NCBI RefSeq assembly: GCF_037975245.1
Contig: NC_092574.1
Location: 9,893,713-9,957,712 of the forward strand
Length of the DNA stretch: 64,000 nucleotides
Reading direction: 5' to 3'
From: Apostichopus japonicus
Taxonomy: Eukaryota > Echinodermata > Holothuroidea > Aspidochirotida > Stichopodidae
Shown: positions 3,701-54,874 of the stretch, one piece after another
Numbering within the stretch: position 1 is the first letter of the stretch
How the letters are laid out: the number at the start of each line of letters is the position of its first letter
Notes under the pieces: generated by a model
Seen by the model: the letters and a program-made list of their open reading frames with translations, nothing else
What the model was told of the DNA's origin: nothing
Databases searched by the model: none
Made by a program: the position numbers and the translations under genes

Positions 3701-6700
3701 TAGTGGAAGCAACTTTTGCAAAAGAATTTTGTGTCGGTTTTTTGCCAATTAGAATTTTTGTCCAATATTTTGAAAACTCTGTTTTTCATCATATATACTG
3801 TATTCAGTAGTTGATATAATATGGAAAAAATGATATTGTTAGAAAAGTGGGAGCAACTTTTGCCAAAAGAATGTTGTGAAAGCAGTAAACAAGGTCATGC
3901 TTAAGGCTATATTACTATTGAACGTTGATCTTTTTTTCGCTCTGATAATTTGCGTTATATTTATTTTGACTTTGGCTCTTGTTTTCAGCTGCTCATTTCT
4001 TGAAGGAGATTGTCTTAGGTTTGCTGTATCTGCATTCACACGGCATACTTCACCGGGATCTCACTCTGGCTAATATGCTACTCACAGAGGATATGCATTG
4101 TGTAAGTTGCATATATATAACAGTATTTATATTGAGCTGTAAATGGTCGGTTGATAGTAGATACACCTTAACTGATTGATTGCATGGTCAATTGATTGAT
4201 TGATCGATCAATGGACGGATGCCCAGCAATTTTGCTTGAGATAGAAGTACAGATTGTGGCCAATTGGGAAGGTGTACCACAATGACTGACAGATTTCTTG
4301 AGATGTAGAAGTGGATGGATGGATGAATTGTTGGATGGATGGATGGATGAGTGGATGGATGCATGGGTGGATGGATGATTGGATGGGTCGGTGGGTTAGT
4401 GCATTGATTTAAGTGTTGTCATAGCAACCAAATAGTAAACATAAGATGTTCTTCCATGCGGCATCATCAACAGAGACATTTTATTTAGAACAAAGTGAGA
4501 AGAAGAAAAAATTAAACTGGAAAATGGAAATATTGAAACAGTTTCAAGATACAATACAAAACATGTATTTTATAGCCGAAAGGAAGACCATGAGAATTAA
4601 CAGTGGTATGCATCAACCATGTACATTTTGTTCTCTCCCTTAAAATAAATACAGAAAATCGCCGATTTTGGACTGGCGACGAGGGTGAACCTACCCAGCG
4701 ACAAACATTACACAATGTGTGGAACGCCCAATTACATATCGCCGGAGATCGCGACGCGGAGCGCCCACGGACTGGAGTCTGACGTGTGGTCCCTCGGCTG
4801 TATGCTGGTGACCTTCTTCACGGGAAAGCCCCCGTTTGACACAGCAGCGGTCAAGACAACCCTCAACAAGGTCGTCCTGGGCGAATACAAGATGCCGGAC
4901 GGGTTGTCCTCGGACGCCTCCGATCTAATCACAAAACTCTTGAGGATAAACCCAAACGATAGGATTACCCTCTCCGGGATTTTGGACCACCCGTTCATGG
5001 CGAAGCCTTCCAGCGGTTTTGTCGGCGGTAGAGAACAGGGGAGACCTCCAGCCGTCAGGGTGAGTAGGGACTCCATTGAATCGTGGGGAAAGATGGGGGG
5101 CGGTTTGGAGGGGTGTGAGGGGAGTAGAGGATTTGAAGATGAGGGGGTGAGGGGAGTAGAGGGATTTAAAGATGGGGGTTTGGGGGGTGCTGGGGGAGTA
5201 GAGGGATTTGAAGGTTGAGGAGTGAGGGGGAGAAAAGTGATTTGAAGATGGAGGGGTGCGGGGGAGTAGAGGGATTGGAAGATGGGTGGAAGGGTGCGGG
5301 GGACTGTAGAGATAAGAAGATGGAGGGGGGTGCTGGAGGGGTGCGGGGAGATAGAGGGATCGGAAGATAGCGGAGCATGATCGTCCTTGTTCTCCTGGAG
5401 GTATCCTACCTTAACTGCTATTTGATACATCTAACATAGCATAACGTGCTGAAGATATTTCGTTGAGCTGTTTATTTTACCACTAAGTTTTCTCTCTCTT
5501 TCTTCTTATTTCAAATTAATGTCCTGTCTCATGCGCATCATGTACAGTGTGACTTATCAAGCAACTGAAACCTACACCTTTTCCATTTCCATTATAATAA
5601 CCTTTTTTTTTCTGTTCGCTTCACCGTTTAGAATGTCGGATCCTCTCACGATAGCGGCCATGCAACCATGGCAACAGGCTCCACCACTGCAACTGCAATT
5701 ACCCGATCCTCTTCGAGATCAAGACCAATGAGGGCACTGCCCCTCCCCAGCCTTACGCCGATCATCTCGGAGGACGAACAGAATCTCATTCCAGCCACCC
5801 ATTCTGCCTTGGGTGATTTACAATCGGGCAACCGGGAAGACGTTAGGTGGAGAGATCCATACCAAAGGCATCCTCCATCCCCTCCTGTCAGAGAGAGAGA
5901 TTATTTCCACACCCAAGATGAACAAAGAAGGCTCAAGGGTAAGATTAACTGCTTTGTTGACCATTTGAAAAGAGTTAATTCTCTTCAAAAAAATTTTAAA
6001 ATAATAAAAGCATTGATCTCATCCAAACTTAATTTATTCAATGCCAAATAATAATAATAATTTTGAAGTTATTGTTAATACATATTTATTTCCTATTTTT
6101 TTTGTCTCTCTTTTGCCCCCCCCCCCTTCCATATGCTATTTGAATTTAACTATATGTTTTAACACTCATTATTTGCAAGTATTGCAATGTATGTCCTATT
6201 GTCCTCTCTTGTAGGACCCTTTAATCACCTTGTTTACAGACTTTTTATCCTGTGAGTGTTGTTCATCCTCTCCCCCCACATCTCTCTACAGAACTCAATC
6301 CTGGAAGTAAAACAGAGAATGAGTTAGCGGCAAAAACTGCACAGTTTCTCTCGGATCTCTCACAGAAAGACTATGTTCATAACCAAGATTATCACGATGG
6401 TCACACCAGTTCCTCATCCGCGAGAGAGCGATTGCATTCTGATAGTAACAAGAAATCTTCGGGATTCTGGGAGAACAACAGCGGGACTTCCGTCTCGCGG
6501 CCGGGAATCTCCGATTTAGGGAGGGAAGGCCGGTCGTACCATTTTGAAAGGGGGATGGATGCAAAATCGTCGAACATACACGACAGTCATAACATGTTAT
6601 CTGGTATAAGTAAAGCCAAACTGTTGTCAACAGAGGTCAGTACAGGGGGGACTCGTCGAGCTGACCGTGGCGTCCCCGGAGGGAGTGTTTTATCTGGTAG

Positions 6701-16400: not shown

Positions 16401-19400
16401 TCAGTGACCATTTTGGAAGTACCTAGCCTTCCTGTCTTGTTCTGAAAACTGTTTCTGGATGCTCTCCAACATCAATATTGAAGGCAGTTGAAGAAATTCT
16501 GTGTCGTATTTCATAACCACGGAGTGTTTGCTGCAATAACACAGAAAAATGAAAATATGGTCAAATATATGTCAGGTATATTTGAAGAAAACTTGATAGA
16601 TATTAAAACTATGAACCCCTGCTTATATGAAATATTCTCCTCAAATATAAGTCAGTAGTTAGAAAGCCAGTTGCACCTTTTCAACCTTCTCCTCCCCTGG
16701 GTGCCCCCCGCCCCCTCCCCACCACCACTCCTCCATCCCTGCCCTGTCGATAATTCCTCTCTCACAAAACCATCTAAAGTATTGTGATATTCAGTTGCTA
16801 CGATTTTGCTAGCTGCACTATTATAACATTAACTATGTGCACTTTTCACTAAACCATTTAATTTGGTATTAGTTACTCAATAATTTATACTTTGAAGGAT
16901 TTAGAACCTTGCAAGGAAGTTGGGGATGGGAGAGGTGGGGGTGAGGGGGAGCAATAAAGATGAACTTAAAACTAAGCACTTTTCATTAACTTGAATGCTT
17001 ACTGTTGATCTCTGGTAACCCTATAGCAATGTTTGCCGTAGTCTCTAGCCAAAATATCAACAAATGTTTCGTTGTGGCTGATGATCACGAGTTGGAAATT
17101 TGATTGGCTGGCACACTCTGTAATGATACTGTAATGAAGAAGAAACAAACAGGATTAGAATTCTATCAACATATTATATGGAACGAGTGGTGGAAACAAC
17201 AACACATATATTAGTAGTGGTTGGGGATATGGACATACTAGGAGGGGCAAGGGACAACCTTTTTGATACAAAAGAATTACTGCTTGTTTAGGTTTTAGAG
17301 AGGGGGGGTGGGAGGAGGGATGAAGGTTAAGAAGTCACGTTATTGTGATAACATGCAGACATATTTATGTTGACATTGAATTGAGAGCTGTATGATGAGT
17401 ATAGGAAATGAAGGAATGTTCACGTCCTATCCATATCTAAATACTTGCGTTAATTGAGAAGTAACTATAGGTAGTTTGCCATAGTAAAAAATGGTGGATT
17501 AGTCAAAGGTAGTGCAAGAATTGTGAGAAGACAGGTAAGAGAGGAGCAGAAGGGTAGATAGAATGCAACATCAGCATTACCAAACAAAGCATGAATATGC
17601 ATGAAGCAAGGTAGATGAAAACTGTTATGAAGAGTTTATGAGGTTGCTAGGTAAGAGCTGAGGAGCAGGAATGTGGGTAGAATGCAAACAATAGCATTAC
17701 TAAACAAAGCATGAATATGCATGATGCAAGGTAGATGAGAATGTTATGAGGAGATTTAGGTGAGCTTGGAAACTGAAGATATTATGCATAATATTATGAG
17801 GATATCTGTTACGTATTCCCTACCTCTTGAGGGCCGTTGCCAGAGCCCTGACGTTTGGCTCATCCAGATTGGTGGTTGGCTCATCTAGAGCCAACACTCC
17901 ACATGATCCCCCGAAGATCCTGGCTAGGGCTATCCTGATGATAAGAGATGCAAGTACCTACTCAGAAGAAGGAAAAAGAAAGAAACATGTGTTTAGTCAA
18001 CTCAATAATAAATCAATTGAAGTTAAAAGCAAAAATGGTGAGTTAAAAAAAACCGGTGCATTTTGATTGTAACAACTCAGACTGACACCATATGGTCATA
18101 TATGAGGTCAAGATATTTATAACAGCAGTATGTTCAACAATGTCATAGTCACAGAAAATTCCAGCATAAACATTAAGAAAACAAAATTTTAATGTTAAAG
18201 ATGTAATCTAGTACGCTGGATGTAATCTATAAGCTAGACTTCGTAGTCCATGTCACTCTGACTTTAATGAGCTAGTAATGTTTTAAAGGGTGGACCATTT
18301 CTAAAGAAGAAAATAGCGACTTTATCAGAAACTCTAACCTGGACAGATATCAACTGGTTTGAAAGGTCTGTTAAATATCAAAATTAATTTTGTAGCCTTT
18401 ACAGTCATCCTGTTAGGTTACACTTATACATTCTTCATTTTTTACGACGAAAATATTTGTGAAATTTTACATTCAAGTCTGGTTTCTTCTAGTATTTTTT
18501 CTTTCTTTTTCTTTGCATAAATAAAAAACTTAATAATTTAGACCAACCTTCTGTCCCATACTGCATCGTTCTCTCATGTTCATCCTCTTCTTCCCTTTCA
18601 CCATTTCTACCTAAAAGGAATAAATATAAAGACAAACTTTTAATTGGGCATAGGAGCAATTATAGATGAGGATGACATTACTCAACGACCGTTCCGCCCA
18701 GGAGTAAAAAGCACCCCCAATCCTCTCTCTCCAATCCCACCTACCACGGCCCCTATCTGCACCCCCAAACCTAGTTTCCAAGCTGCATCTTGTACAGTTT
18801 TGTTAATAGTCTTGCATTGTGATTCAACTGATATGAAATCATTTATATTTAAATTCATGAATGGCAATACTAATGAAGTTATATGCTATATACCTGAGTA
18901 CTGATACACAGTCTATAATGAAGTCGTACACTAGCAATATAAGGACTTATTCTTTCCTTCGTAATGGATGAGCATCGCCCTTTGGGCACAGCGGTGATCA
19001 ACCACCAATAATCCCTCCTCTCCCACCCCACCTAACCTGGCCCCTACCTGCACTCCCAAACCTATTTTCCCAGTTGACCGCATCTTTTAACATCTCAAAA
19101 ACCGTAACGGATGAGGATTGACATGAATAATGCATGCAGATAATTATGTATATTTTGCAGGAAATTCCAAACAAAAGAGTTCATGGGGTTTGCATAATTG
19201 ACTTCAGCTGCTCTTTTATTCTTTCAAGACAGAAATTGACAGATCCTATACTCAGATAAACTCACCCTGTAATTGTAAGCTCTTCTTCCATCTCCCTTGT
19301 CAACGTCAGCTTCAATGTTTATAGAATCAATATCTGTAATAATTAAAATTAAAATAAATTAAGAAAATATAACTGTAGGCGATTATGCGATAAAAACAAA

Positions 19401-22400
19401 TGTACATTGCAGTATTGGGTTTAGAACAAGCTTTGAGTCCCCAAAAATATTCAGAGAACCATTTGCGTCGCAGGGAGATCACAAATTCTTTTTGCATACT
19501 TTGAAATCAAAGAGATACTTATAACCTTCCAGTAACATGTCATTATTTGGCATGAGCGTGATGCACTTTACTAAACACTGAAGTATTGAACTGTTAATTA
19601 AGAGAGACTGTGCATGCATAAGTCTAAAAGTCATTATTGAGAGAAAAAAGTGAAGATAGAAATGTTGATAACTTTCAGAGAGGGTTATAATCAAGGACAA
19701 TGACTGGAATAGGAGGCCGAGGTATGGTTAAACAGACCATATCCCACTTCCTCACTTAGGGATATGCACTAGTTTTATTTGCAATTTCGGCCCTCCAAAT
19801 CTCCCTGAAGTTGAGGGTAAGAAACCCGGAAAAATTGTTGGTGAGGACCATTCACAAAGTGGTTCGTACACGAAGTCTACATAAGAGAAAAACCTTGAGT
19901 TTTGTCTTCTCTTGCCATACTGAACCTCTAACCCCCCCCCCCCCCCCGACCCCTGCTGTTGTTAGAATAAGTACAGTTGATCAAGTAATTTGTGTATAAT
20001 TTCAAGAATGGGGTAACTACATAGACCAAAACAGAACAAAAAGAGCAAAGATTTACCATTTCCTTGGTAGGTCTTCACCCATAATCGCTTAATTTCTTCA
20101 TTTACTTCCAACAATTTCATCCTGTGGAACTTCACTATCGCTCTGTGGAGACATGAAAATGTAAAATCTTGAGTAAAGTACGGGTAAACAAACCCTAACA
20201 CATTGTACAAGTTATGAATAGGTACAGAGTAAATTCATCATGTGAAGGGGATAGGGAAGAGAGGGATAGGCCTATAGGCTCTCACTCTAAATTATAGGTA
20301 TAAGTAGTCAAAGCATGTACAGTACTTAACATGCATGAGGCAACTGTATTCATCATCGCACAGAGGGAGGCTTATTTTTGCAAACTTCTAAAAGTCACCT
20401 TCTAAAAGCCTACTTCATGCCACATTCATCTAGCTTTTAAAAAGGTACCCTGGTGAAGACCTGACCAGCTCAATGGACTGGTGGAGTGTATAAGGGTAAA
20501 AATTGCAACAAAGGCACATATAATTGAGGACTGGTATGAATATTTCAGTCCTTGAAGAAATTTCATCAAGGTTCAAGTGGAAATTGATTAAATGTAAAAA
20601 AAAAACATTATTCATACACAGAATAAGCTGCAATTCGGAAGGGAAAACAATCTAGATTTTTTTTTTTTAATTCTAATGCACTATTTATTTTGACAAATAT
20701 TTATGGTCATTACTTAATTTAATTCAATTATGAAACAAAATATTTAATATGAAATCTTTGATGTTGGTTCACTTACTCATCCAAAGCATTCCTATATTGC
20801 TCCAAGTCATGTGTAACATCTCTCATGGTCTGCAAAGAAAGTAAAAACATAGACACAGAGGATATTAAAATATTATTAAATTAGATTATGTTTCAAGTAA
20901 AAGTTAAGTGAAAGGTTTACAGTCTTGAGGTCAAGCTTACATTTAGCAGCGAAAATTCCTTGGATGTGTAATTATACAATTCGTCAAAATTCACTCGTAG
21001 CTATAACATTCAGAGAGATAATGCTATTAAACAAAACACACACGTAGGCCATACACTGTCCATGATAGGGAAGTTGTCTTAATATATCTAGGTACAGTAA
21101 TTTCAAGTATCCTACCATTAAATTGATAGCATTATCTCTCGACTCCTTGTTGACGATCTTCTGCGATTTCAGATACTCTGCCCGTCTCTCAGCTATCGTC
21201 TTGGTCAGTTCAGAGAGAGTTCCCTTGTACGTGAATTTCTTGGAGACGATGTTTCGCTTGAATTCTTTCAGCTTCTCCTCCTCTGTCTTGAGTTGACGGT
21301 AGAGTACAAACTCTGGTCTATTTTTCGCTTCTTGAATTCTTATGTCTGTGTCCATCGTCAGAGTCCTCTTCCTGTCCAACTCCATTCGGTCTTGATTTTG
21401 TTGCTAAATTGAAAGTTGATATAAAATTTTACATATGTAAAATTGAATCAAAATTAACATCTGAGTTATGTGGTAAACTATATTTATTGATGTTTTAGCT
21501 GTTAGGTGATATTTTAATGGAATTCAAACAAAAATGAAAGGAAAAAGAAAGAAAGAAAAAATGTGCAAAAGAGAAATGATTATATAGCACATGATAATAA
21601 CAGAGAGATATGTCCAGGTGAGTCACTGTAGAATTCTTCATGTATTTTAAAACTTCACATACTGTACCCTATATTTAATAAGCAACATTACACAAAGTGG
21701 ACCACTGTATAAAATATGCATGATGTGCGGGGAAAAAAAAGGGAAAAGTTGAATTCAACCTTTTTAAAAAAATTTATTTAAACAGCTGGTAACAGTGTAC
21801 CTGGAAAGAGAAATATAGGATCATCTTCACTTATGAAGAACTAAGATTAAACTAGAAGTTTAATATAATAAAATGAATATTCATTGACCTACGTACCTTC
21901 TTTTTCTCCTCCTCTCTTCTGCAATTTGAAAGTTTATCAAAACTCTGCTTCAAATTGTTGTCAATGTTTTCTCTGTAAAAAAAAAAAAATGTTTGTCAAT
22001 ATATGGTTTAACAGTTGTTCTCTCACAGTGTTACGCAACTATTTATTGTATCAGATTTGCGGTAAGTTTCTATTAAGGCGGTACATGTTTGTGATGATGA
22101 CCTAACAATCCATGCAACAGCAAAGACAAGAGACCCAATATATGCAATATTTTCAACTATCATTTCTACTAATACAATAAAATATCAATTTCTACTAATA
22201 CTTACATTTTGGAAAGTAAGGTGTCATATTCAGAACTTGTTTCTTCCAAACTCTTCTGGCCATCTGGAAAATGTAAAAATAAAATGATATAAACCTCGTT
22301 GCTTAGATAATTACAATATTACAATTTTCTTAGCAATTAGAAGCTTGGGAGGGGGAGGGGGAGGGTATGATGCTTTGAGAGTACCTGAGGAGAGAGATTT

Positions 22401-25400
22401 GTAGGGGTAATGTAAACTATTAATTTTTCTTCTCCTCCTTCCTTTCCCTCCCATCCTTCCCTCCTTAACAACCCCCCGCCCCCAAAGCCTCCTGGCCCAA
22501 GATGGCCATGCAGAGGAATGAAACATTGACAAGTTCAATACAGGAAGAACTGACTAACACGACATGACAACAACAATTACAATATATAAAAAAGTCAATA
22601 AATCCTATACCACAGACAGAAGACTTTTTGTACTTACGTACAAACATATATTATTGTATTATTTACCTTCAAGACAAGATTCTCTGTGCTTCATTATTTC
22701 CATCTCGAGTTTATTGAGGTCTTTCAACGTCTGATCCAAGAGACATATCCGGTACACCAGCTTGGTAATGGCATCTTGCTCCTTTTCTTCTGGCTGAAGA
22801 CTATCACATTTCTTCAAAATAAAAAATAAAAATGTTTTATGTCTTCTTTTTTTTTGGGGGGGGAGGGGATGGAAAACTATTATCTAAGTAAAACATATTG
22901 CTGTTGCCCTTGTCTTATAAAACTAAACTTAGCAATCCACTTTTATAACTCCTTGATAGTATATAATGGCTGAGTGATCAAATTTTTTTGTTTTTACTAA
23001 CCTGCCACTTGAACTTTTTGGCCATCGGGATAGATAGGTCGTCGCTCAACCCTGAGAGTTTTCGCTTCATGGTGAGCCGATCTTCCAAAGGATTGCTGTC
23101 TAACCTTTTGTTCATATCTTTCAACCTGATTTGAAGTTCCATAATCTGAAAGAGGAAACGTTGCACGTTGCGATCAAAGACTTAGGCTTTGGATGGAGGG
23201 GTGTGTGATGGAAGGGGTGCTGGGGGTTATATGCTACTTGCTCTTTTAATTTTCGTTTTGGTTTGATGACGTTGAGAAAGATTCTATGTGTCCAGACACA
23301 CTGACAACCGCTACATTTTTTGTTCTGCTGATTAGACCAGAATTACATTACATTCAATACCCTTAATCTCACCACATACAGAGATATATGTTATAATATT
23401 TATTTAAATACTTCTAATTATTTTAATGCTTCATAAAAAATATAAATATAAAAAAAATGATGTATCCCAATAAATTTGATTTTCATTTTTATCGTTTGAT
23501 TTCAAAACCAGCTATGAAGTTAACTTGACTGCCTTAAAATTATTCATTTCATTGCATCTTTTAGGTTACGGTTATGTTTTCTGAGTTAAATTTCCCCGAT
23601 CTCTGATTCAACTGTTAGGTACATGCATGGTAGCAACAGAACAGCAGCATTAGTTCAACATAAAATGTAGCTCGAAACTTTGTATTCAACGAGACCTCTT
23701 GCTGACAGCGTACTCCACAAAGGTGAATTCTGCCATCAGACAGATTGAGCTATTACTTACCCTCTCTTGAACGTAGGATGTTATTTTGCAAGCTTTGGTT
23801 TTGACCAGCGTTAAGGCCTCTACAGACTTCCATACATTTTCCTGCATCTGCACCAAAAAGTGATAAATGGATATAAATAGGTGGGAATTCTTATAAATTT
23901 AATACTTTTGTGACTGCTAAAGAAATTTGAAAAACCTGAGCTAAGCATGCTCTATGCTAACATACTACCTTGTCCTTTTTATCTCAATTATCATTTAACA
24001 AATTCTATTTTCACTGTCGGAAAAAAATGAAAATGAAGATTGGAAATGCAAGCTGAAAAATATAGACAAGAATTTAAAAAACTGAAGTTCAAAATATTCA
24101 TGATCTTATACAATCTATTAACATTTTCCCTTCACAAGCAATTTTTTTTTAATATCAATATCTTACTAGGAAATGGAACATCAGCTGATTTTCTCTAGAA
24201 ACATGTAGTCTTCCAAACAGAGCTCAATGTGCTGTAACCATTCATATCTCGAATGTTACGCATATATTTATTTTAAGATCACAAATCCCTCCCCCCTCCC
24301 CCCCCCCTTTAAAAGGAAAAAAGAACTGTACATAATTATATATACACATCTTGATTTTAGCTCATCCTTTTTTAAGATTTTAATATTACATTAGTCCTTA
24401 CCTCCAAAGCCAGGGTTCTGCTATTTTTCTTCATATCACCACAATCCAACGTCCTACACAAAATAAAAAACATAAAACATTAACAACTCGTCATACAATA
24501 TAATGACAACAAAATAAATATTTGAATATTATTTCTTAATATGTAATACAATTAATCTCATCCTACCAGAAATGTACAATAGGTGAACCTGAAAAACCTA
24601 TATACTCTCTGAAATACTCTAAAATGCCAAGGTTTATTAAAAGAAGCAACATTTTAGAATACTAAGCACAACAAGTCGAAAACACAGATGTATATATTAA
24701 TTAACAGTTTGACACAGTAAGTATCATTTGAAACAATGAACGAAAAGCTGATCTCATCTGATTAATACTGGTATGGGAAAAGCATCTTGATGATAAAATT
24801 CACAGCATCAAATGATTAACTTATCTTTCAGTAAGTTTGATCTCAAGACAAACACTAGCTTTTAGTTAAATTCAGTTGCAAACTGAATGTGAATAATACT
24901 GTAAACTTGCTTGAAATTGAGTAACCAAAACTTTAAAAAAAAGGACAAAAGAAGGACAAAAGAAGGAAATGTTGAATCTTACTCTATTAGTATGTTGATG
25001 ATATGTTCCAAATCTTGTGGTAGACTATTACACTGAGAGACTAAGTCCACAATGATTAATTTGAGGCCATCTTTCTTTTCTGCTAGTGCGAGTCCCCTGT
25101 GGATGAAATGGAAACATTAACAGGGAAATGAAGCGAAATAATAAATATCTCTTTCATGACGAATGTCAATCCATAAAAAAGAATTTAACATTGAGTGATA
25201 GTGTCTTAGATCTTATGAAACAATGAGATTAATGTTACCAAATTAGGCATAGAAAGACTAGCTTAATGTTGCCAGTGTAAGAAGAATTCATTGCAGATAT
25301 TTCACATATATTAAAAGATGAATATTTTATATTGAAAACAACAAAACATTAAGAAATATATTTATCTCCTTTGGTTGGATTTTCAACAAGCAATGCTAAC

Positions 25401-28400
25401 ATTCTGCTAATGATAATCTTAAATTATCTTTGTAAAATATTGGGAAAACAATACTCGAAAAATTGAACTGCTGTTGATGTAATCATAAATGACAGAGGAT
25501 ATGTTATGCCATACTATATACACTTACAGTTCTTCTACACGTTGTTGCTTCCGAACTCTCTCCTCTTCCAGAGTGTGAACCACTTTCATCTCCTCCATCT
25601 CCTTGCTATGAGAGTAAGAGTAAGAATATTTATGCACACCTCGTATGAATATTCATAGCATCAATCTACATATATCACTTAGGATTGATTATTGCACCTA
25701 ACAGGATATAATAAGAAAAAATGTGAAATACTAATTTGCACTTTTCATGTGACATAATATTCAAATAATATAGGTGATAAAATAACATATAGGTAAAAAA
25801 AAAACACTTCCATGAAAATTGTTCCATAGCCAAAAAAAGTGCATTCCCAACCCTCAAGCTTTGATAGAAATTAGTTGGTTTGATCTATTCCACTGCCCGA
25901 GACTGAAAAATTAAAAAAACAATTTGTAAACTTACCGTACAGACTCCGCTCTGCTGAGACTCATCTTTTTAAGTCTTTCAAGTTTCTTGATACCTCCTTC
26001 AGTAGCGATCAACTTTAAAAAGAAAGAAGAAAAAAACCATAAAGAACTCATAGTTTGGAGGATTCCCATGGCAACATGATTCCCATGGCAACATAATAGC
26101 AAAGACTGGTTTATCATCTAAAATTATCAGTTTTCAATTACAATCTTTCTTGACTGATTCTCTGACAATGTAACTTCTTGCATCTCTCAAATATAAATAT
26201 ATGCCATGATCTTTCAAATTAAAAGGAATCATGAAAATACAGATCTTTAAATTTTATACCTGCTCTTTAAGATCTTTCGTGCCAAGTGTCTCTGTGGATT
26301 GTCTCCGTAACTTCTCTTTCAACCTGAGTCGGTCTGTGTCGAGATCTCTCCTCTTCCCTTCTAGATAACCTATAATTGAGAACCATGCAGCACTTAGTGA
26401 TTTACGATCGAAAGGTTTTATTTCTGGCTGCACAAAGATGATATTGGGAGGAATTTCATGTAATCAGGTGTGGTTCCGGAGGGCAGGGTAGGGCACAACC
26501 CCCGCCCCATCCTCCCCCCCTTTAATTCAACCCAAACGTAAATTTTTGCTGGTAATGTATTAATATATACAATCTCACTATAAAGGAAAACCTGCCAGTG
26601 TAAACAATTCCTTATAATGCAAATCTAGTAATATCATTGAAATTTAAAAAGCAAATATTTTCTTACAAATCTCTCGTCTGATTTCTTCTCCAATTTGGAT
26701 CTTTCGTCTGATTTCACACAGCTCTTCCTGTCACAAGAAAATTGATTCTAATATTAGCAAAGAACTTTTGAAGCTTAACTTTTTAACATTGCATTTACGG
26801 TGACTATCGGGTGAACGTATCTAACGAAGCAAAAGGACATTGAGAAACACCGCTAAAGATGACACGAAAATTCAATGAAGAAGATCTACTTCCTTATACT
26901 CAGTCGCTGTAAACTATGGATGAACATCTGGGGTACAATTTGTTCCCATTAAACTGTTTAGAGGAATATGATAATCTTTGGAGTGATATGGCTAAGTTTT
27001 TTTTTGTATCATGATTAGCAATTTTTAGTATCAATAAGTCGTCTATAATGATAACATGAAAAGTATATAGTTTGGTGAACCACAGAGAAATAATCTTGCA
27101 AGATTTCACATATATGTGACAATGTCAAATTGATTCAGCATTAAAGTATACCTCAACAGCTAAGGTCTTCATTTCCAATTCATCAATCTGGTTCTCGATA
27201 TGAGCTTTCTCTGTTTCCTCTTTCTCTATCATCTTCCCCAGCTGTGAAGTGATGAAAAAACATAGTCAGTGATATGGACCTAATTGGGGTAGGGTTACTA
27301 CAACTTATCGAAAGAAATGAGGACCTGTTTTCCCAGCTTGGGGGCAGGGGTGAGGGACAAGGTATAATAATCTTAGTTTAAGGAGTCCCACTCTCCTTAA
27401 CGCGTGAAAGATCAGAACGGTTAAAGGAGTAACGTCTCTAATGACAATCTGCAATACTGATGTTAATAAACATATTCTATTGCTAGAATTATGAACCAAG
27501 CCTTACATTGGGGCCCTATGATTTTTTATCTTGCATAACTTTTTTGCTATTAACCATTTTGACTGCTACTAAAATAAGCCAAAGAAAAACTACTCAATTT
27601 TTTAAAGAAGGAAAGCTGCAACCACTGGCAAGAAACAAACATTTGTTTTACTTACTCTTTCAACTTTTTCTTTGCTATCTTGAATGTCTTTGGCCTTGTC
27701 TTCATAAATGTTTAAGTCATATTTCTGCAGAGAAAAATGTAACATTAAAGAGTTAAAAGTAATTCTGGATGATAGATTTGATATCAATGTCGATTCTTAC
27801 ATACTGAAATAGAAGAGACCTCACTTCATAACTGGTACAAGTGTATATATAAATAAAGTCACTTAGAAAGAGACATTACGAGACTTGACTGAATAAAACA
27901 TGGTCGACAGTGATTTAACAAGTCAATTACGACTCAAGTCACTAGATTTTAAAGGTGAGGTGTTCTGGGCACGTTTGCCACGTTTTCCCCACATAGATTT
28001 GTGGTGACTCAAGTCACAAAACTTAACCAGTAACAACTCTATTCAACCATAATATTGAAGTCACTCTTTACAACTTTAGTGATTGAAAACAGTATAAGTG
28101 CAAACATCCACCAGAATACTGTCGCAAATGACTTTAAGATACTGTATATATATGTAAAGTAACTAACAAACGCAGAGTGGTATCAAACTGCCTTCATAAG
28201 CTGCTTCGTTTTACACTTGACTCTATATATCAGCTGCAAAATATTATAAGTTAAGTAATGATACAGTGCAAAAATTTTGAAAAATATTAACAGACAGTCT
28301 TGTTAAATTTGTACACCAACCCCCATCATCACCCACTTAATGTCCTTCCCCCTCCTCCCCCCCCCCATCCTCTCCTAACTCCATATTCATACCTGCTTGT

Positions 28401-31400
28401 TAATCATCGTTGTAAGCTCAATCAGGAGTTTGTTGTATCTGAAAGAACGTAAGAAACGACAATGGCTTGATATTTAAATGTAAGAAAGATAGACTGTTTC
28501 ATTCTGATCTCATACATTTTACAGAAAACAAAAACATTGTAAGTAAATTTATAGTTTGAATATATTCATTTGTTGTTATGCATCACACATTTTTATTACA
28601 AAGTCACCAATTTTGTTTCCTTTTTTGTTTAACAGGAATGAAATAACCATACTGTTTCACTTTCACACCAAATATTGTTTCAAAGTTTCTATCAAACAGT
28701 ACTGAATAATTCCTCACCTGGTTACTTCAAAGAACTTGTCAAATTTTTCCTTGAGAGCTCTCTCCTTGTCCAGAGGCCTTCAATGAGGAAAGAACGAAAA
28801 AAAAAACGTAAATTCCATATTAATTTAAATCCAATTTTCAAACGTAGACGTATCGTAAAATCAAGAACAAAACATTAATTTTTGTTTTGAAATTCCACAA
28901 GTTGGATTAATTTCTACTGATTTACAACCTGGATTGGGTAGGATTCTAAAATTAGCACCAAAAGCTGTGGAATTTTACACAATATCATAAAGTACATTAT
29001 AATGCAGCCGTATTCAAATTATGATGCATTTCTTTGCACCGTTCATCATAAATTGACCTCTCAAATATTGTTTTTTACTATAAAATTTAGACATACCAGC
29101 AAGACTCCTCTTGATGACAAAACAAAACATTTGAAAGGATAGAGCTGGAGACACCAAGTTCATCATTCATCTGTAGAGAAATATTAAACATGAATATAAA
29201 TATGAACATAAAACGACTTGAGCAAACAGCTGAAATAAAAAATAAAATGAATACAAAGACAGGGCACAGGGGCTGTGGGGAAACAACCTGAAAAAAGTGT
29301 TAGATTTCAAATGTGTAAAGTTAATTCTTATCCAATGGCTTTAACCAGCAAGAAGAGAAATTTCCAAAAAGTTTTTTAACAAATTTATCACAACTTGTTA
29401 TAACAACATATTGGATGTGATATTTAATGTATAACAACCTTTCTGAAGGATCATGCATATAATTTGTTAATATAAATTTTACTATGTTATCCCCCCCCCC
29501 CCCTCTCACCGAAACCCAAACCTACGGCTTGGGTCCTGGAATAGACACTAAGAATTAAAACATGCATTCATATTTGTTTCCCTTTTGGTTGGACTATGAA
29601 ATATCCACATCCCACCCCCTCCCCACGGCATCATAGGTTCACATGTGCATGCTAGCATTGTAACTGGCATAATGCAGGCTGTAATTGCCTCCCAATAGCC
29701 AGTAACCAATAATAAATTCAATTTTGTGATTTGCTGTTTGTGCAATAAGTATCGTAATGGACTTACCATCATGCTTAAGTCTTTCTTGCTCGTTACTGGC
29801 TGCCATGAATCCTAAGTAAGAAAGAAAAAGATTAAGCAATTTAGATCATTTTACAATTAAAACAGGGTACGTAGTAATTAATTGCTTTGATCCCATTGAG
29901 GGTTGGAAGGAACACAATAACAAAAACTGCACAATTAACGGACCATTGTGGGGGTAGATCTGAAAAAAGTTGGTGTAATATTTTTTTTACCCCAAAATAG
30001 AAAATTATTCTCAGGTACTTACTACTAAGAATTCACAAAATCTGTGGGCACCACTTCCCCTTTATTGCAAACAAAACTCACTTCCACATTTGACGACCAC
30101 CCCCCCCCCCCTTCAGGTTGAAGTTCCAGTAATTCTGGATATTATCAATAACTGCTAAACAAATCACCATAGCAACAACAGACTGCTGCCTTCAAAGATT
30201 TATGCAAGAGACATCTATAACAGATATTAAGAACAAAACTATTCTCTTAGACAGTAACATAACGCTCAGCAATTTGCAAGGAAAGTTAATACGTTTTACA
30301 ACCAAGAGCCAAATACTTTTTTAAGAGACTACTGTGGCTAAAAAATAGTGAATCTGGTTATAATTCAATCAATCAATCTGATGTACTAGAAATGCTTCAC
30401 AATATAAACACAGACATGCAGACACATACTGGAGAAGGTAACTTGAAAAGAAGACGTGTAAACTTACACCAATTTTATACCAGCCCTCCTGCTGTCGTTT
30501 ATTCTCTTTCTGTAGAGAGAAGTCAAAATAATGTCCATAAAGTATATGTACTTAAAGGGTGTGAAGACTCGCGCAAAAAGAAACGTCTAATGCCAGTAAT
30601 CTGACCTAGTTTTGAATGAGGTGTAACAGAAGTGTTAGACACCACCATCGATCCCAGAAAAAATACACACACAGCTTGCTACCATTGCTAATTAGACACT
30701 AGTGTAGGCTACAGTCAGAACATACACCTGCGGTCAATACCCACAGCACAGCCACTTTCCCTATATGTGACCCACAATTAAACCATCTAGGCTGCATGGG
30801 AAGCAATATATATACCTTACCGGCAACCCATGCCTCACCTTGTAGAAATCGACCTATATGACCTTCCACTTATTCCGGATAATTTACACTTAGAAAGTTA
30901 TATACGTACCACAGTAACACATCTTCGAATGGCTACATTCTGGTTACCCTTGTTGGTAAAGTTCAATTCGATTTCCCCTTCTGCTGTGTTTGGACCTGCA
31001 AGCTTTACGAAGGGGAATGAAATATGGCAGATTTTACAAGGTGAAGAGAGATAAAAAAAAAAGTGGAGAGAGATAGAAAAAAAAAGGGGGGGGCCTAATT
31101 GTTTTAAAAGTGGGATGAGTATAAAAGGTGGTATGTATCGAAGTATTGAGTTTATCAAAAATTTTTGCTCAGCTGATAGTGTGAATTGTTGATATATATT
31201 ATGGTACATACTTTATACAGCAAGTAGAGTCCAATTTTATCACCTAAAAACTTGGGAGAAATTTAAGCAATTTATTTTCAAACTTCCTTGGAGAGGAAAT
31301 ACTTATTAACAATATTACATACAAGCATATGTTGGTTTAAACTTACCTCTAAACTATGAAGAAATGCTTCCCTCCCGCCTGGTGGATATTCACCGGCACA

Positions 31401-33592
31401 AACAAATCTCAAACATTCAATGATTGACTGTATAATGTGGAAAGAAAAACGGGGAAAAAAATTGCTAAACCAATATTTATAGCTGAATTACACTTTTAGC
31501 CATTTATTACTTCAAAACAGGAGTTTAAATTTGTGATGCTACCATGCAGCGAAAGTAAATCTATTGCATGTGTATTTATGGTCACATGCAGTGAATACAC
31601 TGGTTCTTCAACGATGCATGCCTGCCACACAGTGGGCACTAATATAAATGGGAATGGATAGGCCTATATAGGGAGTATGCAAATTAAACTTAAGACAGTT
31701 AGCTTAGGTGAGGAATATACAAAGGCAGAGATCCCTGTGAGTCAATAGGAACAGCTGTACTACTTATTAAAGAATAAAGGCATGTAACATGGAGCAAAAT
31801 GAATACAAGTTTCAGATACTTAATTTTTTGGTTTAAATTTTATATGGAGGTTGAACAGTGGGTGGGGTCAGGGACATGGGCAGTGGTGGGGGTTCAGGTG
31901 GGGCCGGCCAGAGTGGTGAGTGGTGACTTAGACCCCAAGTTACAAATTGAAGTTTACAGGTATCAGTTGGCATATGGCACATATATGTACAGTTCACAGT
32001 ATCGCTATACCTATACCGTACTCGAAATTGACATTTATTAGCAAGTTCGCCTACACATGCGAACTTCTTTTTCTTTTACAGTACAAGCCAATTAAATGTC
32101 AAAAACTTTCATGCAATGTACTTTAAATGTGCAAAATGACGAATTATTAATGCTAAATAAGCTATGGACAGACCTAACCATGCAAGGCTTAATATAACTA
32201 TATAATGTTATTGAAAGCTTTGATTCAAATCATTTTCCAAACTAAATAATTTATTGATAAGTTATTTCCTTGACTTTGCCCAATGTCAACTGGACAATAG
32301 GTTGTATATAGAAACTTAATTCTACATTTTTACAGACACTTTACTGTTTAGTTGGGAAAATTTACAACGCCATATCAGAGTGCTCAACATTTTGAGAACA
32401 ACCACAGAGTTATTGCATGCAGAATGAAAATCTAATATTAATTCAAAATCGCCTACCACTTTTCTATGTAAACTTATCTTGTCAAAACATTCCAAATTAT
32501 TTAAATTTGTTTTCATGCAATGCGTAGATCTGTCCACACTCGGTGGAATCTAATACCTCAGCATAAGTTGGCAGCAGTTCCTCATTTCCTTAGATTACAA
32601 TGAAGTGTTAATCACTCTCGGCCAAGATTTAAAGAAAAACAAGCCGCATTCTCCATTGTACAAACAAGCCGATCGAAGTCAATTGTCTTTTGGTTTGGCA
32701 AACATCCAGGACATGACGTGTACGGTCTAACGTTGGAAACAATTGCATTCATTGTTTCTCCTCCGATTAGAAGATTCTAATATTGTTGCCTAACAAAGGA
32801 TCATCCCAAGCTCTCTAAAAGACTATCGCAAGAGTGGAATTTTCTGACGTAATTGCAGACAATTTGTAGTTAAATATAAAATTGGTAACTATGATATGAT
32901 GCAATTAATGATGCAAATTGAATCGTCCCAAATCATGATGACTAATGCATGCATAAAATTAGGAAATCCCTTCACACAGTTAAGAAGACATGCATACATG
33001 TATAAGGCAATACGAAAGGATCCACAAATGTTTATTTCCAAGACCCAGGATCTTACATGAGGATTGAGCCATGGATTCGATTTTATTCGATATTAAACAA
33101 ATAACTCCATAGATCTCCGTAGATAAATTTTTTTATGTCTGTAAACCTCTAGCGACCAACCAATTTTTTTTCTTACTTTTACTTTTTGGACTATCCATCT
33201 ACTGAAATAATTGGAGCTGGAATACAGGGCAACCCAACTGCATGCACCCCCCCCCCCCTTACTTCCTCCAACACCAATCTCACAACTGTGTCTGGTTCCC
33301 TTGGAAACAGTACCTTGCAAGTCAGTGAGCAACACACACACACACATTCTTATTATTTTATTGTTACAAATGTCTCTTAAGGATCCAAATCCCACATTAG
33401 TACAGATTATGGATTATCATTCAGAAAAAAACTTTAGAAGTTGGTTTTTCCAAGCAAACTTACTGTTTTTCCAGTCCCATTTTCACCAAGAATGACCGTC
33501 AAGGGTGTGCCAAATAAAACGGTTTGTCTTTCCCTCTCCTCTGGACTAAAACTTCTGATTCCTCGGATGGATATTTTGTTAAAGTGCGACAT
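16401..33592 (-). CDS. RAD50: RAD50-family DNA-repair ATPase, short form without zinc hook; 29 coding exons, 892 aa
   Basis: Expected to be a nuclear SMC-like ATPase that binds DNA ends with MRE11. Exons from the 5' end: 33464-33592, 31347-31427, 30910-31002, 30468-30509, 29767-29811, 29097-29170, 28718-28777, 28393-28438, 27656-27724, 27152-27241, 26667-26727, 26260-26369, 25936-26012, 25528-25605, 24983-25096, 24402-24453, 23761-23847, 23002-23145, 22667-22811, 22206-22263, 21897-21972, 21116-21403, 20777-20829, 20057-20142, 19266-19333, 18548-18610, 17824-17957, 17003-17128, 16401-16530. All are GT-AG and in phase. Seen: Walker A GENGTGKT (36-43), Q-loop FCHQEES (Q150), signature RERCSMGQK (755-763), Walker [13 protein letters not shown] (784-795), and H-loop IISHNETF (H826). 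Charged coiled coils run from about 160-375 and 495-690. Human RAD50 is 1312 aa with a CPVC hook; no CxxC occurs here. It is either a divergent orthologue or, more likely, a paralogue. No stop or frameshift was found. Confidence 0.92.
17534..17765. repeat. About 117-bp tandem duplication in a RAD50-family intron
   Basis: Two adjacent copies share GTAAGAG, GAGGAGCAG, AGAATGCAA, AGCATTAC, AAACAAAGCATGAATATGCATGA and GCAAGGTAGATGA. The second copy begins near 17651. The copies are diverged by small indels and lie in the intron between the exons ending at 17957 and 17128. Confidence 0.8.
19689..19815 (+). repeat. Dispersed repeat B, copy 1
   Basis: The segment containing AATCAAGGACAATGACTGG, GGTATGGTTAAACAGACCAT and ATCCCACTTCCT, and continuing to CTGAAGTT, recurs in reverse orientation at 36454-36577 with only scattered differences. 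This copy lies in a RAD50-family intron. No coding content or terminal repeat was recognised, so the family is unassigned. Confidence 0.8.
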
Positions 33593-40900: not shown

Positions 40901-43900
40901 TCTAACAGTGCGGTTAATTGACATAATGTCTGAGAAATATTACAGAATATTGATCAAACGCTATAAAGTTGGTTAAAATTGGATAACGCTGCTTGACATT
41001 TGTCTGGAACGCTAAAAAAAGGACAAGATGAAAAGATTACTGGTATATACGTAAATCGAGACAGGCAGGACCTAATACATGCATGCTCACCGGGCATGTT
41101 GAACTTCCTGCAACCGCAAGTTTCGATGACGTAATCTGCTTCGCAGAAGGTTTCGCACAGTTCTACGGTATAGTTGTATTCATTGTAGACGGTGGCGTCG
41201 GGCTCCTGTAAACATTGGTAAGTGTACGGGTGTGGAAGATTGATAACCTGTGACAAAGTTAAAAAACAATCATTTATGCCACAGGTCAAAGGTTAATTAA
41301 TAGTGAGATGTGTAACTGAGTAACAATCAAAAGATGATAAATATAACTAATTATTTCAATATAACTAAATATTTCAAGGTTGTCATAATTCAAACGTATA
41401 ACGCACAAACGCGATGTGTGGTCGCTCTCTATACAGTGACGTCACAAATTTTGATTTCTCAAGTGAACTGAACAAGAACTTGAAATATTTTCCCGGAGTT
41501 TTCTGATTCAGTAGTTGACAGGATTAATGACATCATGTAGACACTTGTGACGTCACGCTACCTCAAGTTAGCCTCTCATCTCACCTTTGTCAGTTTGAGT
41601 CCGACCAAGCTCTGGGCACCGGGAGACACTGCAAATCCAAGGCGCTTAACGAAAGGAAATTCATGTTGTCCGTGTACCATTATCTTAAAGACAACGAGAA
41701 GACAATATCATAAGTTGAATAGTATAGAATATACCACAGAACATTTGCCTAAGATCATTTGTAGTAGCCATTCCCGCTTACGACTGAAATTGTGATATAC
41801 ACCCGACGATGATCACACAGTCACAGTCTCGATGCAAAGGGACTGGGGTTGAGAGCGGAGCAGTCGTTCAGTTGTTTGGTTTTTCGTGCCCAGGTTCTTT
41901 CTTGTCTGACTTTTCATAAAAGGTACCACAGAACATTAGCGATATCAAGTTATCCGATCATGTATATATTATAAAAGAAGGTGATCGAAGGGGAAGGGGA
42001 AGGGGTGAGGGGAGGGGGAGGGGAAAGGAAGGTATGAAAGGAGGGGAATAAGCTGCACAAACCACGTTGTCGAAACGAACAGTGAAATTTAACTTGTTGA
42101 AATGTTCATGTATACGTGTTGTCGAATTTGACAAAGTAGTATGACTGCGATTGTAAACTCCACGATGCATCTCACTATAGATTCATTGTTGTTATTTTCT
42201 CATGTCTCTCATTAGCACAGCTGCTCACTAAGAGTATTATTTTTAGTTCACTATAACGTCTTCCAGTATTTTAGCTCAGTTTATCTCCAGATGTCAGCTA
42301 TTGTTTCCAGCCCTGTGATATTTTTAAATTTCTAATTGCAGTACCATCTGAAACTTGTAGATGGCGACCTTACCATTTTCGAAACGTTGCGAAGTGTAAG
42401 GTTTCACACCACAGTGATTTTTGTTAGTATACAGAAAAAGTTTAATGTATTCTAGAAGAAAACAGAAATTTTTAACGGTTGTGACTTTCTTAGAAAAGAA
42501 ACTGATTCAGGTGTTGAATATGATAGACATGAAAATTTATTATAAGATATTTTTTTTTGGTGCGTGCAAAATATGTCACAAGGATCGGACTAACGATAAT
42601 CTGGGGCCCGGGCTGACAGGGCCTTTCGGCGATCATCTGGCCGCAATAATGAAATATAAAAAAATAACTCAGGGGGATCCCCCATTCCCCCCCACCCGCT
42701 GCGACAAAATGGTGGGATAAAGTCCATTTCCCAGCACAACGATAAGGACAAGACCCAAATGTTCAAACAACTTGTACGCAAGCGTATATACGGTAATAAA
42801 TATCGGATTTAATTTTGGAGATTCTGGAGGTCCTGGGACCCCACGGTGTGTCTCTGTGGGCCCTGGGCCAATCCGCCCCTGCATGTTTTGGTATGTATTT
42901 TAGATCCTCCTGCAAGCAGGAACTCGCAAAGAAGCCTCATTGGCTTATCAAAGCCGCAAGCTGACCGAAGTCAATCTCTTACATTCATATTTAACGTCCA
43001 TGATTATGAATTGTTAATTGTCAACAACTCTGTAACTGGACGACATACATTAATCTGGGAGTGACTCGAACCGGGGACCTAATGATTGGAAGGCACCGGC
43101 GTTAACCACTGAGCTAACACTCCAAAGGTGTAATACCTTGACGCCTGCTCCTGTGTTGTAGCTGTTGTAGTATTCCCACTGTTCGACATTCAGCCTGAGG
43201 AAGAGACCATAATCAAAGCCAGTCTGTTGTACGTAACGCACGTCTTCTTTCTTCTTGGGATTGTTGAAGGTGTAGCAAACTCCAAAATCGGTGAAAGTTT
43301 GAGTAAAATTCTCTGGACCACACGGTTCCATCATTTGCCAGCTTTGAAGAAGAAATGACACCCAAAAAAAAAAGACCCTTTAATAAAAAACTATAAATAT
43401 ATATGCTATATATTGCAAGAGATCGGGATTGTTGAAAACTTACAGAATTTTCCGTCCGGGAACGCGTTTCCGAAAGCGTGAAAGTTTAATGCCAGCGTCT
43501 ATTTTGCGTATACCGTGTCAAGTTGTAGTCTTGTCTATGTATGTGACAGCATTCTCATAACTATACTAACGCGGTTAAATTTCGACGACACGTTGACAAA
43601 AGTATCACATAACTGAAAACGTTGTATTGATTGGTTATTTACAACACGTATATTATAATAGACATGTCGTGGTTATGGCCCAATTGGCTTGCCATACAAA
43701 ATAGTAGCGTTTCGTTGCTATGGTCAAGACAGTTGTGTTTTGATTCTATGCCAGGTTAACCACATCCTGCAGTATCTCTTCTGATATTTTGCAAATATTA
43801 ATTGATGCTTTCGTAAGTTGAAAATTAGCAACATATCTCGGTTTTAGTTTTCAATATTTCGAGCTAAAATCATGATCATATGACATTTTTATCTCATCAT

Positions 43901-46900
43901 TTGTACATTTTCCTGCATATTTCATACACACAGACGGTACGTATCTCTATGACTATATACCCCTACAGTTCATAGTCTATCATAAACTTGTTTACGATAT
44001 ACGGTTAGTTGGCATGGCATTCAACTAACGTTAGTTTACCAGCATGTAGATAAATTTGTAACTGATGTTTGTTCAGCACTTCATCGCCACAACCATATAA
44101 GGTCATGATACGTCGACAATGATAAAACGATTTGTCAAAGTTTGATTTAATTGATGTTTTCGTACCGATTACGAAGCCATCAAATGAGCGGAAGAGTAAA
44201 TAATGATCGTAATCCAATGGCAAGGCTTTACATTGGATATTGAAAGGTATTAGAGAAGAGCCCATATTGTGTTATGCATGAATGAAGTACTATAATGATC
44301 TAAAAAGTGAACTTTATTAGAAAATATATCTTATTTCATAGATATCTAAATTCCCTGCTTTTTTTATTATGAAATAGAATGAAATGAAATAATAAACGCA
44401 AGATTGAATCCGACTTTCATGAGTCATGTAATTGAAATGAAACTAACCTGAATAGGGGAGGGTTAGAGGAACATACCCCGGGCCTGGATTCCATTAGGGG
44501 ACCCGAGGAAACATGGTATGAAGAAACATGTTCGAGGTTTGGTGACATAATAATGTCCCCGGGTTTGCCATGCATCTCGACTCACACCCCGCCCCCCCCC
44601 CTCCAGGTGGGGTAAACTTCGTCCTAACATGTAAATGGCTTCCAACTAAAAATTGGTATTGCGGAATTATTGTTTTCATACGTTCTATAGCTTTTTTATT
44701 CTCCTATCAACCTGCACAAGAAAATAATAAACTTTCTTACCCATATTATTATTCGACAAAATACTTGAAACTGGTATCCCCATTAATTTTTTTATTAATA
44801 AATATATACACGAAGAAACATAACTATTATTTTAAGAACTATTAGTAAAGTAATAATAATACCTGCATTCTATAATCATATCCTCTTTCTGGTGGGCGGC
44901 ATTGAGGATATCTTGAGTTAAATTACGACCGGTGAAATTATATTCTTTCCAGACATACGATTCGTTGGGGACCTGAAAGGAGTATCAGACATTTTATACA
45001 TAATCATCGAAACAGGTGACAGATCTAAGATTAATGGATAAGGCCTACAGCGTCGCTTGACTTCGAATATCTTAACTATATGTGTACCCTACATCAACCC
45101 TTTAAATACACCCAAATTGTCCCTCCACCGTTCAGGGACTATATGCGTACCCTGCATCAACCCTTTAAACATACCAAAATTGTCCCCCCCCCCTCCACCG
45201 TTCAGGGACTATATGTGTATACCCTGCATCAACTCTTTAAACACACCCAAACTGTCCCTTCCACCGTTCAGGGATGAATGGAGTAAAAACAGTCAGAACT
45301 GACTAACTATTCTTTTACTCTTGTCTGAACTATTCTTATAAGACGAAATGTTAGCATAGAACAAACACAATATGAAGAACTGGAAGAAACTTAATACAAA
45401 TGTGATAAAGTGAAAATAAAGTCATTAGCTTGATTATTGACAACTTTGATTTTAACTAATACAGTAAAAAAAGAAAAAGCTGTGACAATTTTAAATTTAA
45501 TGGATTACATAGTCACTTGACCTCGGATATCTGCAAACAAAGTATCAATCAACGTATGCAGAATGATGAAACATGACAATACAAAATCCGATAACCATAA
45601 AGCTTAAAAACTAGAGTAGGGAAGAAGGGCGCGACAATGTATATTATAATGACTCACGTGAAGTGTTGGATAGAGAAGTTCCAAGATGGCGGCCTGATCT
45701 TCCGTGAGATTTGATTTTCGCCATTGGTTATAGTTACAGACGGTAACCGCGGGGAATGTGACGTTATCAACGTACTGCAGAGTCACCAAACTCGATACCG
45801 GAAAACTGAAAAATTTACTCAGGTTTTTAATAACTCCTTGTACTACTATAACGATGAATACCACCAGCAGAATCATCCAAAATGCTCTAGAAACACAAAA
45901 CAGTAAAAAACAAAACAGTAAATATGTTGATAGACATTAATACGGTATGTACCGTGCATCTGTGAGGTTTACAGATCTGTTGAACACGTCAAAATTAAAT
46001 ATTTATTGAAATTTCATGACAAAATGAGGCGCATATTAAGTTATAAAGATATGGGTACCCGTCCCACGATACGATACCTTTGCCTCCCCGTCACCGCCCC
46101 CACTAATTCGCTTCTGCTTCCCGTCGCCTTTTAAAAGGTAATCTATTTGAATTTAGTATAAATATTGCACATAAAATGTGTTGATGAAAATATAAACTAT
46201 CTGTTGAACATTTTGAAATAACTAATAGGCCTATGCGTAATAGTAACATCTGAAGTGAAACAACACCATGATATGACGTCACGCAGTCACAGTCATAATG
46301 TAGATTTTGTGTCGGAGGACGGTTCAGTCATATAGCTTCGAAATTTAACTTTACCATACGATACGGTTAAATTATTGAAACTGCACCTGATCTATTTCAA
46401 ACACAAACAACTCTGTTTGAATGACAAAACACATAAATAGTCTACAGGCTACAACATTTATGATGTAATTAATTTAAGTGAATCATTAATCAGATTTGAC
46501 TATGTGGGTGGTCTATCTGCAGGCATTTTTTATGATTAAATGATTCATTAGTATCAACATCAAGTAAACGTTAATCACAACGAATCGAGGGTATATTAAA
46601 TGTAGTTATAAATACATTTAGATTCACAAAAAAGGCTATAGAACTAAATAATATACAGAAGGCTATTGTTGCTGGAGTTGTGTTTTGTTTTTTGTTTTCT
46701 TGGTATGTGTGAAATTGTTTGCATTTAGACCGAGGACTTGAACAAAGTCCTCAGACGTAAGAATCACAACGTCCTCGGAAGGATTCTATTGTTAAAGAGT
46801 ATTGTTAAGGTTAGGGTACATGGATTTGAACAATGGAAAAAACAATGGGGTCTATACACACATGTGTGTGTTTGCAAGAGTGTTTAAATATGTTACAGAC

Positions 46901-54000: not shown

Positions 54001-54874
54001 TATACTGGAGTAAACCTTCACGACACTGCGTAACAATTTGAACAAACCACACATATATAGATTAAAAGAACAGGAGCGACGTTATAATTTCTTTAACTGT
54101 ATAATATTAATCGTATAACTTCCGCTGTACCAATATTCAAGACACCACCCTCTCTTTAAGCAATGGCTATTTCGTATTTGTCACTTATTATATTATATTA
54201 ACATATTACGAGAGTCTTTGAACTTTGTTCGGCCGTTGTTTGCTGACTGGATAACTATTCCAATAGGAGTGGAGGCAACGCATAGTTTGGACAGAACGGA
54301 CACTTGCCAACGTCAACAAAACATAGAATGGTTGCCGGGAGAAATAAGATCGGACAGATGCTATAAAAAGAAAAGAGTTATGATATGAACAGATCCCTTC
54401 AAGTTGGCGTTACAACAAAACAATGAAAACATGTTAAGGAAACCATTGTTGCTAACAACAAAAGAATCAGTCGCGTGTAGGCAAACACAATTAGCTCGGC
54501 GATACCGGTAGCCTACACACACTTGGGATTTCGAAAAAGTTGTGAGTTGTGTCAGTACAGACTATGCATTTCTTTGTTCTTTGAGTTTTCAATAATGTAG
54601 GCCTATCTTATATATACGGGGCGCGGATCCAGGGGGTGGGGATGTGGGAAGGGATGGTGTATCCCACCCCCCAAACAAGGTTTGTATTTTAGCACAAGCT
54701 TTTTTTCTTGCATTGCAGTCGGAACCAGCGACCCCACGCTTAGAATTCTGAAGTGATTGGCCTTTCAGAGATCTTGAAATATTGCGGCAGGAATAATTTT
54801 CTCAAGTTAATGTTAGAAGCCATATATTCTAATACATATATTATATACTTATCTTTGCAGATACATATACAATA
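48030..54874. other. Intergenic region with repeats, no supported gene
   Basis: Only short, low-complexity open frames are present and none resembles a known protein. Contents include a GAG/GAT-rich purine tract (about 49397-49447), a hAT-related copy at 49667, several G or C tracts (49650, 50755, 51045) and AT-rich DNA. The left end presumably includes the 5' flank of the channel gene, and the right end the promoter and any 5' UTR exon of the DAAT-repeat gene. A TTTGCAG acceptor-like site lies at 54860, shortly before its start codon. Confidence 0.6.
49667..49895. mobile_element. hAT-related element copy without nested insertion
   Basis: Starts CAGTGGCGTAGGAAGGTAC like the element at 59041 and continues with the same sequence, through GTGGCCTCAGATGCAATTTG and CACTTCAACACCCACTCC to TGGTGCTCCAAATGAGATTT. 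The site GTCTAAGG (49730-49737) is intact here, whereas in the other copy it is split by an 843-bp insertion. I could not find a matching right terminus or target duplication, so the right end is probably truncated or diverged. Confidence 0.7.

Follow-up and report, generated by a model that had tools for sequence, protein, structure and literature searches.

We report that a 64,000-nt window of the genome of the sea cucumber Apostichopus japonicus (contig NC_092574.1, positions 9,893,713 to 9,957,712) hosts a RAD50-like gene that retains the RAD50 ATPase head, has arms of about half the usual length and encodes, in either of its two protein models, no CxxC zinc hook, the element by which two RAD50 molecules are linked. 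The same genome also hosts a canonical, hooked RAD50 and two MRE11 genes. With moderate confidence, we interpret the window gene as a RAD50 duplicate whose product would form a compact, hookless complex resembling the Mre11-Rad50 (MR) complex.

Gene structure, ATPase head and arms

The gene lies on the minus strand, from an ATG at 33592 to a stop codon ending at 16401. Its 29 exons join in phase into a protein of 892 aa with no internal stops, and all introns are GT-AG (Table 1). This reproduces the exon number, protein length and end point given in a preliminary description of the stretch. An optional exon (21000-20941) leads to an alternative model of 30 exons. The 29 introns of this longer model contain 82 cryptic cassettes that keep the phase, all of which were rated with a splice-score model trained on the gene's own 28 internal exons. 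The optional exon scores 17.6, higher than all cryptic cassettes (maximum 14.9). When it is omitted, exon 22 (288 nt) pairs one to one with a 300-nt exon of the canonical RAD50. The 29-exon form is the neater fit to the canonical gene, and both forms are considered here. Residue numbers refer to the 912-aa model; after residue 693, 20 should be subtracted for the 892-aa model.

The preliminary description had claimed a full RAD50 ATPase head, and we could locate all of its motifs, namely Walker A, Q-loop, signature, Walker B and H-loop, together with a D-loop (NLD) at residue 813. In Pfam, the protein matches AAA_23 (E 2.3e-31), SbcC_Walker_B (E 1.1e-6) and, likewise above its cut-off, SMC_N (50.7 bits). 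The top PDB match is 5da9 (E 8.5e-85). At an E of 0.001 or less, the PDB yields 17 sequences. The name Rad50 is attached to 14 of them, the remaining three (5da9, 5dac and 7zr1) we take to be Chaetomium Rad50, and there is no SMC chain in the set. Judged by these matches, the head is nearer to RAD50 than to SMC proteins. When compared with the RAD50 heads of the canonical sea cucumber gene, human, Chaetomium and yeast, the window protein keeps 116 of the 153 positions that are invariant in all four. Its head shares 47.3% identity with the canonical copy of the same genome, while the canonical copy shares 67.2% with human. The branch leading to the window gene is around five times longer than that of the canonical gene (1.09 and 0.22, respectively), yet its 29 exons are free of stops.

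The two arms total 519 residues in the 912-aa model and 499 in the 892-aa model, compared to 918 in the canonical RAD50 of the same genome. The arms are about half as long as usual; the first description gave approximately 530 against 950-1000 residues in canonical RAD50. A heptad signal is detectable in 24-36% of the segments scored along the arms and in 0-5% of those along the head; the corresponding values for the canonical RAD50 are 30-51% and 0-6%. The arms are predicted to form antiparallel coiled coils. No CxxC occurs in the 892-aa or the 912-aa model, in agreement with the previous claim, and the hook family PF04423 was not matched by the gene in a Pfam scan of protein and genome. The protein has 18 cysteines, four of which (374, 394, 427 and 486) lie around the apex. 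All four are single cysteines, as had been stated, but only two of them (C374 and C394) had been recognized. The idea that the motor was kept and the hook discarded fits the sequence, with the reservation that a CSGC cassette in intron 17 might supply a hook, as discussed below.

Canonical RAD50, descent of the window gene and a second MRE11

The first account had considered a paralogue and suggested a search for a second, canonical RAD50. We searched the whole assembly (671.58 Mb in 35 contigs) and identified such a gene on the same contig as the window, approximately 6 Mb away (C14:15957343 to about 15986880). Once spliced, its 39 exons encode 1295 aa with the hook AQCPLCHRGF (CPLC), and it matches a PDB RAD50 chain, presumably human, with 1004.7 bits over its whole length. 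Its hook exon (C14:15971949, 32.9 bits) is the PF04423 match over the cut-off in the genome. A weaker match to the same family (C12:17896878-17896922, 18.9 bits, E 0.96) falls below the cut-off, inside an 893-codon open frame. Because a canonical RAD50 is present, the window gene is not the only RAD50 of the animal, and the paralogue considered in the first account is supported. A genome search with the window protein, in which 36 candidates were scored, returned at least 33 matches, of which 27 fall in the window gene and six in the canonical gene. PF13476 was found in four places, corresponding to the window gene, the canonical RAD50, one gene that is SMC5-like by eye and one locus on contig C2.

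To reconstruct the descent of the window gene, we compared its introns with those of the canonical RAD50. All 15 head introns compared have the same phase; 13 of them lie at exactly the same residue and the other two within three residues. From these common phases and positions we conclude that the window gene arose by duplication of an intron-rich animal RAD50 gene and that it evolves fast. Exons 1-12 have the same phases as their canonical counterparts one for one. The nine canonical exons 13-21 correspond to only three exons (13-15) of the window gene, canonical exons 22-26 and window exons 16-20 have the same five phases, and the five canonical exons 27-31 correspond to the single exon 21. 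Whole exons were thus likely lost in both arms, with the pairing of coil exons resting on phase and size.

Searches with the Mre11 DNA-binding family and TIGR00583 identified two MRE11 genes, which lie head to head around 6 kb apart (C12:25582139-25609162) and which we call MRE11A, the canonical one, and MRE11B, the diverged one. They match the same MRE11 PDB chain, which we assume to be human, with 650 and 399 bits, respectively. Exon phases are equal in all 11 pairs compared. The nuclease motifs (SDCHIG, GGDLFHHNKP, VHGNHD, FVIHQN and WGHEHD) are preserved in MRE11B. Although the coding score of the exon that bears GNHD is low (-8.4), this exon aligns with both human and MRE11A. The two sea cucumber proteins are 59.4% identical in the nuclease and 48.8% in the capping domain. 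The region that binds RAD50 is present in MRE11B as well, but identity there drops to 32.7% (55 positions), compared to 64.3% between MRE11A and human (56 positions). The value of 32.7% resembles that of a comparison between fungus and animal; it is compatible with a changed partner, and is no proof of it. An NBS1-family match above the cut-off was found on contig C3 only. With a diverged second MRE11 in the genome, a second MR-like machine gains in plausibility.

Possible complexes and competing readings

In the mechanism that we propose, the window protein would bind ATP where two heads meet, and the base of its coils would carry a dimer of MRE11, either MRE11B or the canonical MRE11. The resulting compact 2:2 complex would be stabilized by the engaged heads, by the MRE11 dimer and by coils that touch laterally, with no zinc clasp at the tips. 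Such a complex could recognize DNA ends and gate MRE11, and would be unable to bridge distant DNA through hooks. We further consider, more tentatively, that the hookless half-length RAD50 and the diverged MRE11B compose a complete second Mre11-Rad50 core with zinc-free dimerization, beside the canonical Mre11-Rad50-Nbs1 (MRN) complex. As a guess, the window protein might serve in a tissue or stage in which tethering is unwanted, such as the germline or the embryo. The published mutants suggest that a hookless, short-armed complex is workable. In human MRN, a hook mutant can still support the activation of ATM if more of the protein is present, whereas the loss of the coils cannot be compensated (PMC3642328). 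In yeast Rad50, a cut of approximately 300 coil residues largely spares the functions in homologous recombination and not those in non-homologous end joining, and a cut of approximately 500 abolishes homologous recombination (PMC6315862). The window gene is approximately 400 arm residues short of the canonical copy.

Several observations weigh against our interpretation. At the base of the coils, the site of MRE11 binding, conservation in the window protein is poor, with 7 of 38 identities to the canonical copy and 10 of 38 to human; for reference, the canonical copy shares 17 of 38 with human, 9 of 38 with Chaetomium and 12 of 38 with yeast. The changes at invariant head positions include the signature neighbors G1199E and A1203M (human numbering) and D1270N in the H-loop, so that the activity may differ. 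In the coils, the sequence supports only one exon pair (20/26), and most of the other exons find their highest-scoring match in a different canonical exon; head exons 4, 5 and 8 likewise lack such support in their pairing. Finally, splicing in the 90-nt in-phase cassette of intron 17, which encodes CSGC, could give the protein a hook again.

The preliminary description had named an extra hook exon between exons 15 and 19 as evidence that would overturn it. What lies there is this weak in-phase CSGC cassette, which leaves some room for such an exon and which we did not accept. Were the cassette included in the transcript, be it constitutively or in certain tissues, the gene would encode a short-armed but hooked RAD50, which we regard as unlikely. 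The cassette would enter in phase at the junction of residues 436 and 437, near the midpoint of the arms, and its CSGCQCVW is similar by eye to the human CPVCQRVF. It ranks fourth among the 82 cryptic cassettes, and its acceptor (3.8) is ordinary, since 8 of 37 canonical internal exons score as low. Over 1,000 dinucleotide shuffles of intron 17, a cassette with as high a score was obtained in 143, one with a CxxC in 35 and one with both in three, so that the cassette merits attention. However, its donor (1.1) is weaker than those of all 37 canonical internal exons, the 28 internal exons of the window gene and the 21 exons of MRE11A and MRE11B (11 and 10, respectively). Its total score (10.4) is lower than that of any of the 28 internal exons of the window gene (minimum 17.6), and only 1 of 37 canonical exons scores as low. 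Cassettes with CxxC occur in 4 of 29 introns of this gene, intron 17 included. PF04423 returned no match to the cassette at E up to 10, although HMMER filters drop most matches above E 0.1, while the canonical hook stretch reached 43.6 bits. When a hook profile of four eukaryotes was run with filters off on 2,115 open frames of the window and two spliced pieces, the cassette was not among the best 12. The hydrophobic spacing, inspected by eye, continues over the direct join of exons 17 and 18, but tests of periodicity there give no uniform picture, with p from 0.02 to 0.33 in segments that span the direct join and from 0.03 to 0.71 when the cassette is included.

A conceivable alternative, which we hold less probable than our main interpretation, is that the window protein has no complex of its own. 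It would pair with canonical RAD50 heads or with the canonical MRE11, and modulate the main MRN complex by competing with it without bridging DNA. The conserved head motifs are in favor of such a regulatory role, and with arm totals of around 500 and 918 residues a mixed dimer would hardly bring its tips together and would have no clasp. On the other hand, MRE11 is duplicated too, a finding that agrees at least as well with a dedicated pair. A further possibility, which we consider very improbable, is that the duplicate is decaying or not expressed and will eventually be lost. The long branch, the 37 changes among the 153 head positions that are invariant elsewhere and the shortened coils could all be read in this way, but the 29 exons are in phase, all splice sites are GT-AG and all ATPase motifs are kept. 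The lack of stops despite such a long branch is hard to reconcile with a dead gene.

Table 1. Coordinates of the RAD50-like gene, its motifs and the two MRE11 genes (window positions unless a contig is given)
Feature	Position	Strand	Remark
Exons 1-6	33592-33464, 31427-31347, 31002-30910, 30509-30468, 29811-29767, 29170-29097	-	Splice chain
Exons 7-12	28777-28718, 28438-28393, 27724-27656, 27241-27152, 26727-26667, 26369-26260	-	Splice chain
Exons 13-18	26012-25936, 25605-25528, 25096-24983, 24453-24402, 23847-23761, 23145-23002	-	Splice chain
Exons 19-22	22811-22667, 22263-22206, 21972-21897, 21403-21116	-	Splice chain
Optional exon 23 (60 nt)	21000-20941	-	In phase, acceptable splice sites; gives 30 exons, 912 aa
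Exons 23-29 of the 29-exon form	20829-20777, 20142-20057, 19333-19266, 18610-18548, 17957-17824, 17128-17003, 16530-16401	-	Splice chain
Walker A, GENGTGKT	33464..33487	-	Residues 36-43 of spliced protein
Q-loop, FCHQ	29111..29122	-	Residues 147-150 of spliced protein
ABC signature, CSMGQK	18548..18565	-	Residue 778 of spliced protein (912-aa numbering)
Walker B, LDEPT	17874..17888	-	Residue 807 of spliced protein (912-aa numbering)
H-loop, ISHNE	17074..17076 (histidine)	-	Residue 844 of spliced protein (912-aa numbering)
Two arms	20818..28431	-	Residues 178-697 of 912-aa model; 519 in all, 499 without optional exon
Exons 16-18, probable apex region	23002..24453	-	Two cysteines, 394 and 427, both single; no Pro or Gly in residues 396-454
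Cryptic 90-nt cassette with CSGC, intron 17	23327-23238	-	Phase 0 at both ends; weak donor; competing candidate for a hook exon, left out of both models
MRE11A	C12:25599819-25609162	+	Core model; start and tail open
MRE11B	C12:25593966 down to 25582139	-	Core model; first exon and tail open

Other open frames were noticed in the window. By eye, one on the plus strand (4649-5215) resembles an exon of a PLK4-type kinase, and two on the minus strand (40957-41292 and 45607-45936) resemble exons of an ENaC/ASIC (degenerin) channel. A frame of 562 codons on the plus strand (54833-56518) begins with what looks by eye like a signal peptide and continues with a long ATDA tetrapeptide repeat. Elsewhere in the assembly, the mitochondrial contig (C35, 16,099 bp) hosts a COX1 that is sensible in the echinoderm code, for example with AAA read as Asn. 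Five further pieces of COX1 lie outside it, at C29:14745-31219, and are either a mitochondrial concatemer or nuclear copies.

Comparison with known systems

Among the papers listed in our literature searches, whose coverage is incomplete, none described a hookless RAD50 paralogue in an animal. If our interpretation is correct, a hookless RAD50 retained beside the canonical copy, together with a duplicated MRE11, would separate the MRN motor from hook tethering in nature, and the role of the hook and of arm length would become directly testable with natural proteins.

Similarly to the canonical eukaryotic RAD50, the window protein has a bipartite ABC head encoded with the same head introns, and predicted coiled-coil arms; it differs in the length of these arms (499-519 residues compared to 918) and in the lack of CxxC. 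The Rad50 of Pyrococcus furiosus also has short coils (approximately 280 residues, compared to approximately 500 in human; PMC3642328) and an Mre11 partner, but unlike the window gene it bears a CxxC hook (PMC9569753). The shared introns indicate that the window gene, unlike the archaeal Rad50, descended from an animal RAD50 gene. Another retained and fast-evolving duplicate of an MRN subunit is mre11-dup of Drosophila mojavensis. An mre11 duplication approximately 15 million years old is reported in one Drosophila lineage, with a single rad50 in all 12 Drosophila studied (PMC3053365). Short arms and the loss of the hook have each been engineered separately, in the shortened-coil mutants of yeast Rad50 (PMC6315862) and in the C2G hook mutant of human RAD50 (PMC3642328). 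In the sea cucumber, both appear to coexist in one natural gene beside an intact canonical copy.

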